Assembly: GCA_028875055.1 (NCBI GenBank)
Contig: JAPPGG010000019.1
Span: 1-64,000, forward strand
Direction: 5' to 3'
DNA: 64,000 bases
Source: Chloroflexota bacterium
GTDB lineage: Bacteria > Chloroflexota > Dehalococcoidia > Lucifugimonadales > UBA3495
Within the stretch, counting starts at the first letter, position 1; every line of letters starts with the position of its first letter. The notes beneath the pieces are model-generated. The model searched no databases and was not told the DNA's origin. It worked only from the letters and a program-made list of their open reading frames with translations. This document shows positions 30,669-41,628 of the stretch, piece by piece. Position numbers and translations under genes: made by a program.

Positions 30669-31634
30669 TTACCGGCTCCACTTCCTGGTAAAGGTGACCA
30701 GGAACATGGCTGTGATGAACAGGCCAATGAAGGACTCGATCCCGCCTACGCCCCGAGCCCAGGAGCTGGGATGGTCCACCCAGCCTCCGTAACCCAGGGT
30801 GGTGAATGAGACCAGGGAAAAGTAAAAGCAGCCCCACAGCCTCGAGAGAATGTTGCCCGATCCCACACCGGCAGAGTCCGGGCAGAAAAAGTAAAAGATG
30901 GCAAAGGACACAATCACCACGCTGGCCACAATGCAGATGCGGAAGGGCCGCTCTCCATATCCGAAGAGGGCCTCGAAGCTCAACAGGAAGAGAAAATTAA
31001 GCAGCGCCCGCCAGTTTTCGGGCTTCAGCAACAGCCAGGGCTTCCGCCAGTTCAGTCCCTGGCCAGTCCTGGTCCACGCCGCTCTGCGCCGGCACACCCA
31101 CTCCCGGTACAGGAACTCCCCGGCCAGGTCGGAATATCCCCTGTTCTTGTACCAGACATGGAGTTGCCTGTAGGTGGACACGGCGTTGTCATACATGCCC
31201 ATCCGCTCCCATTCACTGACATAGCCCTCTCCCCACTGGACTGAGCCCAGTTCAGTCTGGGCGCTGATGCGCGCCGCCAGCAGGTAGGCGCCCTCCAGGT
31301 TGGCTCGCATCAGGAATGTCCCCCGCAGGTCGGCCCGAAACAGGTCCGACTCTCTTAGGTCCGCCCCGAACAGGTCGCAGTCCTGCAGGTCGGCATAGCC
31401 CAGGTCGGCGCCCCGCAGTACCGCCCCCTTGAGTTTCAGTCCCGACAAGTCTGCGGAGTTCAGGTTGCGAAAGGACAGGTCCAGGCCCTCACCCGTGCCT
31501 CCATTGGCACAGATCAGCCCTACCACGTCCTCTCGGCACAGCGGCTCCGACCCGGCAATAACATCGGTGCGTCCCTGCGCCGTTAGCCACCGGTCCACCA
31601 GGGCCGCAGAGTGTGCCAGGGGAAAATCCACCAA
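30669..31634 (-). CDS. Pentapeptide-repeat protein fused to a two-helix potassium-channel domain
   Basis: In this 321-residue product, residues about 52-125 are pentapeptide repeats of A(D/N)LxX form (ADLSGLKLKGAVLRGADLGY onward), forming a right-handed quadrilateral helix. A linker with a Trp/Tyr-rich segment follows. The C-terminal third has two membrane helices (CIVASVVIVSFAIFYFF and FIGLFITAMFLVTF) flanking SLVSFTTLGYGG, the potassium selectivity filter, near residue 278. It is a probable membrane ion channel with a cytoplasmic repeat domain acting as sensor or scaffold. It is monocistronic. Confidence 0.85.
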   Translation of the reverse strand: MVDFPLAHSAALVDRWLTAQGRTDVIAGSEPLCREDVVGLICANGGTGEGLDLSFRNLNSADLSGLKLKGAVLRGADLGYADLQDCDLFGADLRESDLFRADLRGTFLMRANLEGAYLLAARISAQTELGSVQWGEGYVSEWERMGMYDNAVSTYRQLHVWYKNRGYSDLAGEFLYREWVCRRRAAWTRTGQGLNWRKPWLLLKPENWRALLNFLFLLSFEALFGYGERPFRICIVASVVIVSFAIFYFFCPDSAGVGSGNILSRLWGCFYFSLVSFTTLGYGGWVDHPSSWARGVGGIESFIGLFITAMFLVTFTRKWSR

Positions 31635-33266: not shown

Positions 33267-34273
33267 AACCCGCCTTCGACAGCAGAAATAACCGGAAATT
33301 GCCCGGAACCCCATCAGGGACAGGACCGGGCCAACGGCTGTTGAGGTACAGCCCCAGTCTGCTTCAGCTATGTTTCCGCCAAATTACACGGTGGTTAACT
33401 CTATGTTACAAGGACTCTGGCGCCGGATATTCAAGCTGAACCCCGGTTCCGTTGCTGAGAGTCGGAGCCAAGCGCATTGCAGGTTACCAGTTGCGAAGGA
33501 CCGCGAGAACAATGAAGCCTAGCCGTCATCTCCGCTCATTCTTGACCTTTCTGATCTGGAGGATTTGACCGTCGAGAGGGTAACCAGGCCAACCGGACGG
33601 TTTCGTCGCTGTAACCCTTCGCAGCGTATGAGCCAGGCAGGGTTTAACGCAAACCGGCAACCAGGGATGTGACTGCTTATTCTTCGTCTCTGTTCATGTC
33701 GGGCATGGGGAAGGCAATCGGGAAAGGGAGAATTGTCAGCGGTATTTCTTGAGCGGGTTGGTTAATTGCTGGAGGATGGTGAAAAGGAAGAAGTCGACGT
33801 CCCAGCCAGCCCAGGGTCCAAGGCCGTTTCCCGTAGCTCTTCCGGAGGGGCTGCCAAGTGACCCTGATTACCTCCCAGGACCACCACGCAGTTGGCCGCC
33901 CTGTCACCTTCGGGGTCTGGATACTGGCAGTGCGTGGCTCTGAAGTGAATGGCTCGGCGGTAATGACGGTGGCAGCCGAAGGCAGCAATTTCAGTCGTCT
34001 GAGAACAGCGGCGATTTCATTGGGTTGGCCTTTCACTGGCAGTCACCCCTGGACCCTCCACGCACATCCGGGCCCTCGGTCCCACGGTACCGTTTCTGTT
34101 CCCGGTTACAGCCACTCCGCCACCGATGGAGCTGCCCTGGGGGCAGGAAGGCAATGCTTGACGTTGATAGTCCGTACAACTATGCTCAAACCAACAGAGC
34201 CGCCCCGTCCCGCCCATGAGTCGGCGGCGGGCAAAGACGCTTCACTCAACCTGATTCGCGAAGGAATTGTGGA
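33267..34273. other. Intergenic region of about 1 kb
   Basis: Frames exist on both strands (for example 33677-34036 minus and 33858-34277 plus) but none has a convincing start, ribosome binding site or known motif. It may contain the regulator's promoter near 33360-33410, where the sequence is AT-rich. Nothing else is seen. Confidence 0.3.
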
Positions 34274-35995
34274 ATGAAAGTACAGATTATGTCTCCCGCA
34301 GCCGACCGCGTGGACTTCAAGGTGCCCCCTGCGCCCAGACTCGTTTCCTTTGAGGGCAAGACCATTGGGTTGTATAACAACGTGACCGGCGGGGCCGACG
34401 TTGCCGTCGAGCGGTTCGCCGAGCAGCTGCAGCGCAGGTACCCCAGCGTCAAGTTCGAGCGATATGGCGGAGATCTGCGAGAGGGGCGTCCGGTCCTGAG
34501 CCGAGGCGTCCACATTGATGAAGACGAGGCGGCCCGCATCGCCACCGAGGTTGACGCCATGGTGGGGGCCACGGCCCATTGAGGGGGCTGCACGTCGTGG
34601 CTTAGCCATGACATGGTTGCCATGGAAAAGGCGGGAATCCCCACCGTGGCCATTGCCGCCCAGAGCTTTGCCCGCGCGTGGCAGTCCTGCGTGGACGGCT
34701 GGGGTCAGCCCACCGCCGCCTACGTCATCATTCCCCACGCCACCACGGGGCAGCAACCCGACTTCATCCGAAGTATGGTGGACGGCCAGATTGACGCCAT
34801 AATCCAGGGCCTGACCACCATGCAGACGTCTCGCGGGCCGGTTACCGCCCGGAATGGAGGCGGCGCGACCGAGGTCTTCACGGTGGAGATGGACGCATCC
34901 CCCGAGGGTATTGACGCGGTTAACCGATTCCTGGCCGAACGGGACTGGAGCGACGGCATTCCGGTGGTTCCTCCCACACCCGAATTGGTGGAACGCATGC
35001 TGGCCGGCACCAGCAGGAGTCCCCAGGATGTGCTGATGGTGATGGAGCCCGGCTTCGGCGTAGCCACGGTTGAGAAGGTGGCCATCAACGCCGTGATGGC
35101 CGGGTGTCGCCCTGAGCAGTTTCCCGTCCTGCTGTCCGCCATTGACTGCCTGGCCCAGCCGGAAATGAACCACCGGGATATGCAGGTGTCGGGCCACACC
35201 GAGGCCCCGCTAATCCTGGTCAACGGCCCCATCGCCCAGCGAGCCGGCATCAACTGCGGCACCTCGGCCATGGGCCCCGGTGTGGTAAACAGCGCCAACA
35301 CCGCCATAGGGCGGGCGCTGCGGTTGTGCCTGATCAACATCGGCTACTGCAAGGCAGGCACGGGCGATCCCAACTTTATCGGCCTGCCCACCAAGTTCGG
35401 CATGTGTATCGCCGAGAACGAGGAGCTCAGCCCCTGGCAACCGTACCATGTGGACCAGGGTTTTCAGCCTCACGAAAGCGCGGTGACGGTGGTGACCGTT
35501 ACCGGCCCCGGAGACATTCTCGACTCCGGTTCCAGGAGCCACCAGGACACTTTGAACAACATAGCCCAGCTGATGTACTACCCGGGCTCCGGCAACGGCA
35601 GCTGGATTCGCGGCTGGCAGTCGGCGCAGGTGGGGCACACCAATCAGCGGGTTTCTTACCCCGGACCCTATCACCCCATCATGCTCAGTCCTTCCCGGGC
35701 GGTGATTCTTGCCCAAGCTGGGTTCAGCAAGCGAGACGCCCAGGAATGGCTGCACGAACGCTGCCGGGTATCATTGAAAGAGGCCATCGGCAGCCGCGGG
35801 GTTCCCAGGGACGAAAACGGCAAGTGGCTGAATCACCCGGAACTGCAGGCCCTGGAGAATGATCCGGAAGCCACCATACCCATGCTGGAGAGCCCTGAGC
35901 AGTACCTGCTGTTCGTCACGGGAGGCACCACCCACTACGCCAACTTCTTCTATGGCACCTACGGCATCGCCACCCGTCCGGTGGAGGAGTTCTAG
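34274..35995 (+). CDS. UGSC-family selenoprotein (in-frame TGA at codon 103)
   Basis: Reading TGA (34580-34582) as selenocysteine joins two ORFs into one 573-residue protein. The junction is VGATAH-U-GGCTSW, matching the U/C-G-S/G-C motif that names the UGSC family, known to include selenoproteins. Residues 1-190 are the UGSC domain (FEGKTIGLYNNVTGGADVAV, then AMEKAGIPTVAIAAQSFARA). Residues about 210-573 form a second domain (WSDGIPVVPPTPELVERML, VATVEKVAINAVMAGCRPEQ, INCGTSAMGPGVVNSA) of a family without known function that often accompanies UGSC proteins. AAGGA precedes the ATG. Codon use continues smoothly across the TGA. A redox role is likely but unproven. A nonsense mutation is the alternative. 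Confidence 0.85.
34603..34619 (+). promoter_or_regulatory. Candidate bacterial SECIS hairpin after the TGA codon
   Basis: TAGCCAT-GAC-ATGGTTG forms a seven-pair stem (two G-U pairs) with a three-base loop starting with G. The loop begins 27 bases after the TGA, inside the spacing usual for bacterial SECIS elements, and is within the coding sequence as expected. Confidence 0.5.
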
Positions 35996-37296: not shown

Positions 37297-38754
37297 TCAG
37301 GACTCGCCCAGGCCCAGGAACTCCCGCACCCTTTCCTTGAAGGGTTCCTTGTCGTAGTTGGTGTAAAGGGCCAGCGCATTTCGGACGGGATTGCCGCCGA
37401 ACATGCGCTCGTACAAAACCTGCCGGCCGCTGAAGGAACTGCAGGAGGCGTCCCAGGCCAGGTGGAACAGCTTAGAGCGGTCCCAGGCATTGGCGGTGTC
37501 GGTAGCCATGTATTGGCCAACCTCGGCGGCGATGTCCGTGTCGAAGTCCGCTTCGGCGGGCAGAGCCATCAAGCTGCTGGTGCCGAGCATCTGGATAATC
37601 TCCACCATGCGAGGATACATGGACCGGCCAAACAGGGTACGCCCCGCTCGCAGGGGAGGCAGGGCCGGGCTCATTACGCCCCACCGGTTGGGCGCCGCGT
37701 CGGCCTCGGAAGCCCGGAGGCAGGACCAGAGGGTGTCCCTTTGAATGATCAGCTCTGCCACCTGTTCCTGAACGTGGGGGATGGTTCCCGACCCCAGGGT
37801 ATCCACAATCAGGTCCGCCCGTCCCAGCATGAACTCGGCCTTAACCAGGCAGCGCGTCAACACCTGGTGCCCGGTACGAGCGTCGGAACTGGTGCCCTGG
37901 GCATAGCCGTTGCAAAGCTCCACGTTTCCCATGAGAAAGACCCGCTCCCACGGCACAAAAACATCGTCGAAGAAGACCACCGAATCCATCTCCTCGAAGC
38001 GGGACCCCAGCGGATGGTTGAAGTGGGAGCGACCGACGTCAAAGCTCTCCCGGCACAGAAACTTTACGCCTGGCGTGTCGCAGGGAATGGAGAAGGAGAA
38101 GGACTGCCGACCGTCGTCGTCGGCAAGGCGGTGGGATGCCACCGGATAGATGGCGATTTCGTCGGAGATGGGGCCCAGCGTAGCCAGTACGCGGCTGCCC
38201 CTGACCACAATTCCCGCGTCCGTTTCCTTCACCAGAGTCAATGCCACCTCTTCGCTCAGGGTGTCGGTGGGATTGGAGGTACGTCGTCGTTGCAGGTTAA
38301 CCAGGGCATGGGTCAAGGCTACGTCGTTTTCCCGCAGGAACTCGTGATAGTCCTCAACGTTGCGCTGGAATTCGGGTCGGTCCTGGGCAAAGTAGCCGGA
38401 GGCCCCGGCCCACGCCGAGAAGATAGTATTGAGAAAGTCGGGCGAACGCCCCATCATTCCGCAGGAAGCCCAGGCCCACCTGGTCATCATCTGCCGCCGT
38501 CGCACCAGGTCTTCCGCCAAATCGGGAACCAGGTAAGACAGCCCGACCGGCTCGCCGGTTGTAGGGGAAGCGAAGGTCATTTCTTCGCGCAGGTCCGGGT
38601 CGTGCTGCATGTCGTACAGGGCAGCCACCGATTTGACGCCGTTCTTCAGGGCCGGGTGGGTGGTCACATCCTTCACCCGTTCCCCGTCAATCCATACTTC
38701 CCTTGGGCGGTCCCGTAGTCCCCTGATGTATTCGGCTCCGGTTCTAGCTGGCAT
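37297..38754 (-). CDS. 4-hydroxyphenylacetate 3-hydroxylase family monooxygenase (HpaB type)
   Basis: The 485-residue product begins with the standard RTGAEYIRGLRDRPREVWIDG. It contains MMTRWAWASCGMMGRSPDFL, FFDDVFVPWERVFLMGN, and a C-terminal helical bundle with FGRSMYPRMVEIIQMLGTSS. Family members are FADH2-dependent oxygenases that hydroxylate phenolic rings; some relatives are 4-hydroxybutyryl-CoA dehydratases, but the iron-sulfur cysteine/histidine set of those was not found. A separate flavin reductase is required and not seen nearby. It is co-directional with the LLM enzyme. Confidence 0.9.
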   Translation of the reverse strand: MPARTGAEYIRGLRDRPREVWIDGERVKDVTTHPALKNGVKSVAALYDMQHDPDLREEMTFASPTTGEPVGLSYLVPDLAEDLVRRRQMMTRWAWASCGMMGRSPDFLNTIFSAWAGASGYFAQDRPEFQRNVEDYHEFLRENDVALTHALVNLQRRRTSNPTDTLSEEVALTLVKETDAGIVVRGSRVLATLGPISDEIAIYPVASHRLADDDGRQSFSFSIPCDTPGVKFLCRESFDVGRSHFNHPLGSRFEEMDSVVFFDDVFVPWERVFLMGNVELCNGYAQGTSSDARTGHQVLTRCLVKAEFMLGRADLIVDTLGSGTIPHVQEQVAELIIQRDTLWSCLRASEADAAPNRWGVMSPALPPLRAGRTLFGRSMYPRMVEIIQMLGTSSLMALPAEADFDTDIAAEVGQYMATDTANAWDRSKLFHLAWDASCSSFSGRQVLYERMFGGNPVRNALALYTNYDKEPFKERVREFLGLGES

Positions 38755-39156: not shown

Positions 39157-41628
39157 GTGGCAGGACCATGTTCCGGCCTTACCGTACTGGATTTTTCCCT
39201 GGGCATGCCCGGCGCCCTTTGCACCCTGGTGCTGGCCGACTTCGGCGCCGAAGTCATAAAGGTTGAACCTCCCGGCGGCGACCCCTTCCGCTTCCAGCCG
39301 GCATGGATATCCTGGAACCGGGGAAAGAAGGGCATTACCCTTGACCTCGGCACTCCGGAAGGCCGCGAACAGGCCGTCATGCTGGCCGGCTCGGCCGATG
39401 TGCTGGTGGAGTCCTTTCTACCCGGAGACATGGAAGAATGGGGGCTTTCGCATGACCACCTCTCGGCGCTTTACCCCGGCCTGGTCTATTGCTCCATAAC
39501 CGGCTTTGGACAGAAAGGCCCACTGCGCCGGGTGAAGGGATACGAGGGACTGGTTGCGGCCAAGGCTGGCCGGATGCTGAACATGCAGGGCCAGCCAAAT
39601 CGTGACGGGCCGGTTTACTCGGCGGTCAATACCGGAAGCTGGCACGCCAGCCAGGCCGCAGTAAGGGGAATCCTGGCGGCGCTTCGGGTCCGTGGCCTCT
39701 CCGGGCGCGGCCAGTGGGTCCAGACCAGCATCGTCCAGGCCCTGGCCTCTCCCCATGACAACAACGCCGGCGCCGGGGGCCTGGTGAACCTGCAGCTGGC
39801 TCGAAAGGACCCGGAGCGGTACCCTGTCCGGGCCGCCAGTCGGGGTCTCTCCACGATTGGCTACATTCCCGTACGGACCAGAGACGGCGCCTGGCTCCAG
39901 CACGCCAATCAGCGAGTCCCCCACATCCAGGGTCATCTCAAAACCATTGGCCTGGGGCATCTGCTCGAAGACGAGCGATTCGCCAGGGTACCCGCTATTG
40001 ACGTGGAAAACCGGGAGCTTCTGCGCCAGGAAATTCTGAATAAGCAGTCGGAAAAGACCTCCGACGAATGGATGGATGCTTATCTCGAGGACGGCAACAT
40101 CGCCGCCGAACCCTACCGTACCAGCGTGCAGGCCATGGACCACCCTGCGGTGGTTGATAACGGGACGGTGGTAACCGTTGACGACCCCGTCGTAGGCCCC
40201 ATGCGCACCCTGGCTCCGCTGGTGGAATTAAAGGAAACCCCGGGAGAACCCAGTGGACCCGCCCCGGCATTGGGACAGCACAATCGTGAACTCCTGGGAA
40301 GCCTGTCCGAACGGGCAAAGCCGGCGTTTAACGCCATCTCTTCTGAAAATGCCGGCAACCTTCCGGCTAATCCCCTGTCCGGTATCACCGTTCTGGACCT
40401 GGCCACCATCCAGGCCGGGCCCTACGGCGCCTCCCTCCTTGCCGACCTGGGAGCGCGGGTGATCAAGATAGACGCCACCGACCGGCGGGTGGACGAGGGA
40501 CGGCGTTCAACCGCCCAGTCCATCGCCGAACCCCGCACCTACGCCGGCAAGGAGGGCATTCAGATTGACCTTCAGACCCCCGAGGGAAAGGAAGTTGCCC
40601 ACAAGCTGATCGCGCGGGCGGATGTCCTGTTGCACAATTTCCGCCTGGGAGTACCGGAACGCCTGGCCATTGACTGGGAAACCTGTCGGGGCATTAACCC
40701 CCGAATTGTCCACCTATGGATGGGAACCTACGGCGAACACGGGGAACACGCGCGCCGGCCGGGCGCTCACCCCATTCCAGGCGCAATTATGGGCGGAGCC
40801 ATGCGGCAGATGGGCCGGGGCATGCCGCCTCCGCCGGAACAAGTCCTGGATGTTGAAGAGACAGTGGAGGCGACCCGCTGGATTATGAAATCCAACTGGG
40901 GGCCGGACCAGAACACGTCGCCGGCCCTGGCGACGGGCATCATGCTGGCCCTGCGGGCTCGCGAAGTTAGCGGCAGGGGGCAGCCCGTTCACGTTACGAT
41001 GCTTAACGCCAACGCCTGGACCAACGCCGATGAGTACTACGACTATGAGGGCCGTCCCCCGATTGTCCTGCCCGACGAGGAAGTTCACGGTCTTCATGCC
41101 CTGTATCGGCTCTACCGGTGCCGGGAAGGATGGGTTTTCCTGGGGTGCCTGTTCCAGGAAGAGTGGGAGGCCTTTTGCCGGACCGTGCAGCGGGATGACC
41201 TCCTGACCGACCCGCGCTTTTCCACCCGCGAGGCCAGGCTGGCCAACGACGAAGCCCTGATTCCCGAAATAGCGGCCATATTCGCCGGCGGTTCCGCCGC
41301 TGAGTGGGAAGCGTTACTGCTGGAAGCAGACGTGGGGTGCGTTCAGGCCGACGAAGCGCTGGAAGGTGATTTCTACGCGGACCACCCCCACGCCAGGGCC
41401 AACAACCTGAGCGTTGAAGTCGAACATCCGTACATCGGCAAATATTTGCGGTATGGCGGGCTGGTCGAATTCTCCCTGACGCCGGGGCTTTATCGCACCT
41501 CAATCCAGGTGGGGCAGCACACCAGGCCCCTGCTCCGGGAACTGGGCTATAGTGACCAGGAAATTGAAGACCTGGGAGCACGGGGAATCGTACAGTGGCC
41601 CGATCCATCAGTGGGAGGGGAGCCTTAG
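39157..41628 (+). CDS. Double-domain class III CoA-transferase
   Basis: The 823-residue protein is two CaiB/BaiF domains in tandem. Domain 1 (about 1-395) starts LTVLDFSLGMPGALCTLVLA and domain 2 (about 405-823) starts ITVLDLATIQAGPYGASLLA. Each has the GRGQ strand after the catalytic helix. In domain 2 the catalytic aspartate is present (GPDQNTSP, Asp584). In domain 1 the matching position is Ser161 (NTGSWHAS), so that half is probably structural or altered. Single-domain family members dimerise as interlocked rings, and this fusion would make an internal pseudo-dimer. The GTG start is behind GGAGGTGAACC. It begins a plus-strand run with HAD, DUF35 and thiolase genes. Confidence 0.9.
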   Translation: MAGPCSGLTVLDFSLGMPGALCTLVLADFGAEVIKVEPPGGDPFRFQPAWISWNRGKKGITLDLGTPEGREQAVMLAGSADVLVESFLPGDMEEWGLSHDHLSALYPGLVYCSITGFGQKGPLRRVKGYEGLVAAKAGRMLNMQGQPNRDGPVYSAVNTGSWHASQAAVRGILAALRVRGLSGRGQWVQTSIVQALASPHDNNAGAGGLVNLQLARKDPERYPVRAASRGLSTIGYIPVRTRDGAWLQHANQRVPHIQGHLKTIGLGHLLEDERFARVPAIDVENRELLRQEILNKQSEKTSDEWMDAYLEDGNIAAEPYRTSVQAMDHPAVVDNGTVVTVDDPVVGPMRTLAPLVELKETPGEPSGPAPALGQHNRELLGSLSERAKPAFNAISSENAGNLPANPLSGITVLDLATIQAGPYGASLLADLGARVIKIDATDRRVDEGRRSTAQSIAEPRTYAGKEGIQIDLQTPEGKEVAHKLIARADVLLHNFRLGVPERLAIDWETCRGINPRIVHLWMGTYGEHGEHARRPGAHPIPGAIMGGAMRQMGRGMPPPPEQVLDVEETVEATRWIMKSNWGPDQNTSPALATGIMLALRAREVSGRGQPVHVTMLNANAWTNADEYYDYEGRPPIVLPDEEVHGLHALYRLYRCREGWVFLGCLFQEEWEAFCRTVQRDDLLTDPRFSTREARLANDEALIPEIAAIFAGGSAAEWEALLLEADVGCVQADEALEGDFYADHPHARANNLSVEVEHPYIGKYLRYGGLVEFSLTPGLYRTSIQVGQHTRPLLRELGYSDQEIEDLGARGIVQWPDPSVGGEP

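Follow-up and report, generated by a model that had tools for sequence, protein, structure and literature searches.

The forward-strand positions 34274–35995 encode, in our confident view, a single 573-residue selenoprotein, in which a putative hairpin aids the recoding of one UGA, the UGSC domain around it is probably related to GrdB and PrdB, and a selenol would carry the chemistry. The reading of the TGA at codon 103 as selenocysteine is firmer still and close to certain. Positions throughout refer to the window, the whole stretch of 64,000 nucleotides from a Chloroflexota bacterium that was analysed. UGSC selenoproteins were first reported in 2008 (PMC2398784), as was the fusion of UGSC to an unnamed domain, and the gene described here is a new, divergent member. 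What goes beyond the literature found is the proposed kinship with GrdB and PrdB, together with the pairing of UGSC with a C-terminal domain that has no match among named families.

A single reading frame interrupted by one UGA codon

Translation of 34274–35995 (+ strand) gives a single frame of 573 codons followed by TAG, of which the sole internal stop is the TGA of codon 103 at 34580–34582, in the context MVGATAH*GGCTSWLSHDM. Standard open reading frame calling breaks this frame into a fragment of 102 amino acids (34274–34582) and a 460-amino-acid frame beginning at ATG 34613, which lies 10 codons 3′ of the TGA and inside the UGSC domain. A likely ribosome-binding site, GAAGGA (34260–34265, + strand), was read directly from the sequence 8 nt 5′ of ATG 34274, and none comparable was found upstream of ATG 34613.

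The initial annotation had proposed that the two frames are one UGSC-family selenoprotein, and this is upheld by the single frame, the conservation of the TGA and the match of residues 5–181 to the family profile. Its placement of the TGA at codon 103 is exact, and its expectation that standard calling would return a 102-residue fragment and an N-terminally shortened protein was borne out. That the split calls would hide the active site is a reasonable further step, with the term ‘active site’ itself being inferred, since the UGSC family has no assigned activity.

Membership of the UGSC family

Marine surveys since 2008 have counted UGSC among their most abundant selenoprotein families. Residues 5–181 (34286–34816, + strand) match the UGSC family PF24696 with an E-value of 3.9e-29 and 102.4 bits against a gathering threshold of 25, spanning positions 2–171 of the 172-position profile; a genome search and the predicted structure also delineate this domain. 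The NCBIfam equivalog NF041046 scored 84.5 bits, under its cut-off of 125, and the motif is UGGC rather than UGSC, and because of these two features we regard the protein as a divergent member. The likeness to the family described in PMC2398784 and later reviews includes the same domain by Pfam, selenocysteine as the first residue of a UGxC motif, cysteine in some relatives, and occurrence in aquatic bacteria. The protein departs from that description in its motif, its NF041046 score and its additional C-terminal domain on the same chain. A PHROGs search gave no match, and sequence searches of the PDB with the protein, the fused profile, the PrdB-like profile and the C-terminal profile returned nothing meaningful.

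A second, more distant UGSC-like subfamily was also seen (L060:7193, L080:2355 and 12360, L079:1862, L126:3030, and L131:49). Its motifs are of the type NGFUGTCTPACTRPA or GIGAUGSCTPAVLRA, its members also have the C-terminal part, and they often neighbour an ordinary UGSC fusion.

Selenocysteine machinery and conservation of the UGA codon

The host genome is a draft of 3.75 Mb that is 98% complete. The initial annotation had suggested searching it for selA, selB, tRNA-Sec and selD, and all four are present. The tRNA-Sec scored 67.5 bits, with the anticodon tca assigned by ARAGORN, while selB was matched over its full length at 345 bits (cut-off 242), selA at 542 bits (cut-off 268) and selD at 385 bits (cut-off 125). 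The selD gene has an in-frame TGA of its own in HCAGUAAK, the usual selenocysteine site of SelD.

Searching with PF24696 identified four UGSC genes, which lie on four contigs of the genome and have exactly one in-frame TGA apiece within the matched domain. Homologues were found in 88 of 294 genomes in a class-wide search, with one TGA in most full-length matches, and a scan of GTDB contigs produced 80 loci, among them members of Chloroflexota, Betaproteobacteria, Actinomycetes and haloarchaea. Of the 122 distinct homologous sites that have the motif, 115 carry TGA and seven a cysteine codon (from Nonomuraea, another actinomycete, a mycobacterium, Sphingomonas, two haloarchaea and a Clostridiales bin). 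The residues around the TGA had been taken for the UGSC selenocysteine or cysteine site, and an alignment of homologues at position 103 had been proposed; every site that keeps the motif carries one of these two residues and nothing else. In 58 of 58 aligned proteins position 103 is C or U, and Cys106, the partner cysteine of the UxxC motif (TGC, 34589–34591, + strand), is invariant. Cysteine forms of the fusion or pair were recorded at L091 and L120 (haloarchaea) and at L065, L066, L068, L077 and L136, whose hosts are actinobacteria, Sphingomonas and Clostridiales.

The closest orthologues (L057 and L058, from one Dehalococcoidia genome and one Chloroflexota genome) are independently assembled, share 78% identity over residues 1–572 and carry TGA at the identical codon. 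A further orthologue at 49% identity also has TGA at exactly codon 103. Measured against L057 and L058, dN/dS is about 0.1 before codon 103, 0.14–0.32 just after it and 0.15–0.17 in the C-terminal part, so selection is purifying both before and after the codon.

Alternative readings of the frame

A recent pseudogene or a sequencing error, in which TGC or TGT turned into TGA, gains some plausibility from the seven homologues with cysteine, which put a cysteine codon one or two changes away. It is already refuted by the conservation of the TGA in independent assemblies: the codon stands at the same position in the 78% and 49% orthologues and in more than 100 others, three further UGSC genes of this genome have it, and selection is purifying before and after it. 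We therefore consider this reading exceedingly improbable. An altered genetic code, with TGA meaning Trp or Gly genome-wide, would account for the in-frame TGA here and in other genes, but in relatives the residue is replaced by Cys and never by Trp or Gly. The neighbouring gene at 37297–38754 uses TGA as its ordinary stop, and the genome has a Trp tRNA with the ordinary anticodon cca alongside the tca selenocysteine tRNA, which together make general reassignment unlikely; moreover, selA, selB and the neighbouring frames have no internal TGA, nor is in-frame TGA widespread among the ordinary conserved genes examined. The chance of such a code is accordingly minute.

If the frames instead gave two proteins, an N-terminal fragment plus a C-terminal one started at ATG 34613, there would be a parallel in the many relatives that encode the C-terminal part as a separate gene downstream of UGSC. 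These natural splits, however, come after the whole UGSC domain (at about residue 180–200) and not at the selenocysteine codon, whereas ATG 34613 is internal to the domain and is without a ribosome-binding site, and the conserved UGGC motif would be lost from the fragment. We judge this arrangement very improbable, and take the frame as encoding one selenoprotein.

A putative SECIS hairpin 3′ of the UGA

A putative bacterial SECIS hairpin, GUCGUGGC-UUA-GCCAUGAC, lies at 34594–34612 (+ strand) and starts 11 nt after the UGA. In this sequence alone the fold of the region is unremarkable (z of −1.4 to −1.7 against dinucleotide shuffles), and some homologues taken singly (L057, for example) have an ordinary fold energy, being unusual only as a set. 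Across 115 homologues, folding of the 45 nt that follow the UGA is more favourable than that of synonymous recodings matched for codon usage (median z −1.28, p 9e-19), while control windows in the same genes gave a median z of −0.17 and a difference from the hairpin window of p about 3e-21, p-values that overstate independence because the controls share ancestry.

Codon choice in the 70 regions with a W..HD context follows the same direction. The Ser codon is TCG in 65 and TCA in two, against a TCG background of 26%. In every one of the 70, the loop-closing codon has C as its third base, which faces the Trp codon. This is the pattern predicted for a bacterial SECIS inside a coding region. In a covariation test most stem positions barely vary, so support for the hairpin comes from codon choice rather than from compensatory changes. 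The cysteine homologues (n = 7) are too few for a firm contrast between selenocysteine and cysteine forms, and an Rfam search of the window gave no match at the gathering threshold.

The C-terminal domain and its pairing with UGSC

Residues 205–573 (34886–35992, + strand) form a C-terminal domain belonging to an unnamed conserved family, for which no Pfam or NCBIfam match was found in any of 59 members. The domain is fused to UGSC in 67 open reading frames, and in the split cases 22 UGSC genes are followed immediately, in the same orientation, by the C-terminal gene. Being either fused or directly adjacent, the two parts appear to share a joint function. Fusion of UGSC to a conserved domain of unknown function, as UGSC/Unknown_1, was reported in 2008 (PMC2398784, its Figure S1A), and the architecture here is alike in this respect; the C-terminal domain would probably correspond to Unknown_1.

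The C-terminal domain was modelled with a pLDDT of 92.5. The best Foldseek hit for this model alone had an E-value of 0.18, with no clear solved relative, and the best VIA match, to class I fumarate hydratases (Z 5.0 across 88 residues), is too weak to name the fold; such weak structural matches are not proof of a new fold. A relationship of the domain to GrdE/PrdA was considered and rejected (profile probability 0.1%). The domain has no invariant cysteine, with C278 and C378 each being Cys in 49 of 58 proteins, which leaves Cys106 as the natural partner of Sec103.

Probable relationship to the GrdB and PrdB selenoproteins

The genome also encodes PrdB-like selenoproteins, one of which scored 181 bits against TIGR04483. 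Aligned by hhalign, the UGSC profile matched the PrdB-like profile with a probability of 91.7 and an E-value of 7.7e-7, placing selenocysteine on selenocysteine and cysteine on cysteine, and it matched the full GrdB profile with an E-value of 3.4e-4, the GrdB/PrdB–UGSC alignment covering only about 85–95 columns. Control profiles from 18 other neighbour families reached a probability of at most 2% and an E-value of 0.024 or worse; a nineteenth family scored high and is itself a UGSC N-terminal piece. The motif context of the protein (VDAMVGATAHUGGCTSWLSHDMVAMEKAGIPTV) resembles that of the PrdB-like selenoproteins from the same genome (VDGAVIGTTUPRCHQSGGLIARAIESAGVPTV). As in PrdB and GrdB (TIGR04483, TIGR01918 and PF07355), the aligned selenocysteine is flanked by a VDA-x strand and an E-x-x-G-I-P-T-V stretch, and as in the PrdB-like set the cysteine at +3 is aligned too.

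The protein also differs from PrdB and GrdB. Neither PF07355 (GRDB), TIGR01918 nor TIGR04483 matched this protein at an E-value of 0.01, the matches of the GRDB model stopping just before the selenocysteine, and the C-terminal domain here is unrelated. The pyruvoyl partner GrdE/PrdA (PF09338), which 9 of 197 genomes in the class possess, is absent from this one. GrdA (PF04723) had no match in this genome, but neither did it in the control genomes. On balance, the profile comparison suggests that the UGSC domain is probably a distant relative of the selenocysteine-bearing domain of PrdB and GrdB. Our literature search found no paper linking UGSC to these proteins.

The same genome has short PrdB/GrdB-like proteins (L160, at G000:C22:31556–32041, and another at G000:C68:173858–174268). 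Both score well under the PrdB equivalog cut-off, in a genome without the GrdE/PrdA partner, and the first has an in-frame TGA within a U-P-R-C motif.

UGSC might instead be a thioredoxin-fold redox protein, its likeness to GrdB and PrdB being local convergence around UxxC. The family was called ‘likely’ thioredoxin-like in PMC2398784 and is listed beside thioredoxin-like proteins in PMC13188914, and the UxxC motif is common to many thioredoxin-fold selenoproteins. The structure predicted for the whole protein (pLDDT 89.6) speaks for a different fold: in the model the UGSC domain alternates strands and helices in five units, residue 103 opens a helix, and the solved structures that the domain matches have Rossmann-like or comparable sheets (best Z values 10.8 and 10.0). 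Furthermore, the profile alignment extends over some 85 columns, including the strand and helix flanking the motif and the GIPTV strand. We find the thioredoxin-fold reading unlikely, and favour distant kinship with GrdB and PrdB.

Gene neighbourhood

The neighbours in the window include a luciferase-like monooxygenase, an HpaB-type hydroxylase and a double CoA-transferase III, a set that fits the catabolism of organic acids or aromatics and proves nothing. By sequence, the recurring neighbours across the 80 loci are ABC transporter parts, MmgE/PrpD-like proteins, CoA-transferase III and dehydrogenases, which share loose catabolic themes, and no fixed operon partner beyond the C-terminal domain was found at these loci. 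Elsewhere in the window, 39157–41628 is an 823-residue open reading frame with two tandem CoA-transferase family III stretches, and 30669–31634 encodes a fusion of pentapeptide repeats with a two-helix ion channel domain.

Proposed mechanism and implications

In the mechanism that we propose, tRNA-Sec and SelB read the UGA of codon 103 as selenocysteine, aided by the hairpin just 3′ of it. The selenol of Sec103 would attack a small organic substrate. Cys106, which follows three residues later, could resolve the intermediate by forming a selenenylsulfide, to be reduced in turn by a cellular thiol system. The C-terminal domain may serve as a dedicated substrate-binding or partner domain, or may complete the site, and would in this way replace the role of a separate subunit in the known reductases. 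Assignment of the protein as a selenol-based reductase of small molecules is offered tentatively. Slightly better favoured, though still short of an even chance, is the broader proposal that UGSC constitutes a third branch within the selenol reductase superfamily of GrdB and PrdB, with its own unnamed partner domain in place of the pyruvoyl subunit, widespread in Chloroflexota, Betaproteobacteria and other lineages and acting in the catabolism of small organic compounds.

Because gene callers split genes of this kind and lose the selenocysteine site, the selenium-dependent fraction of these genomes is underestimated; examples in this genome alone are at least four UGSC genes and a selD whose frame contains a TGA. 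Together, kinship with the glycine and proline reductases and the conserved pairing with the C-terminal domain would provide a first concrete, testable idea of what UGSC proteins do.
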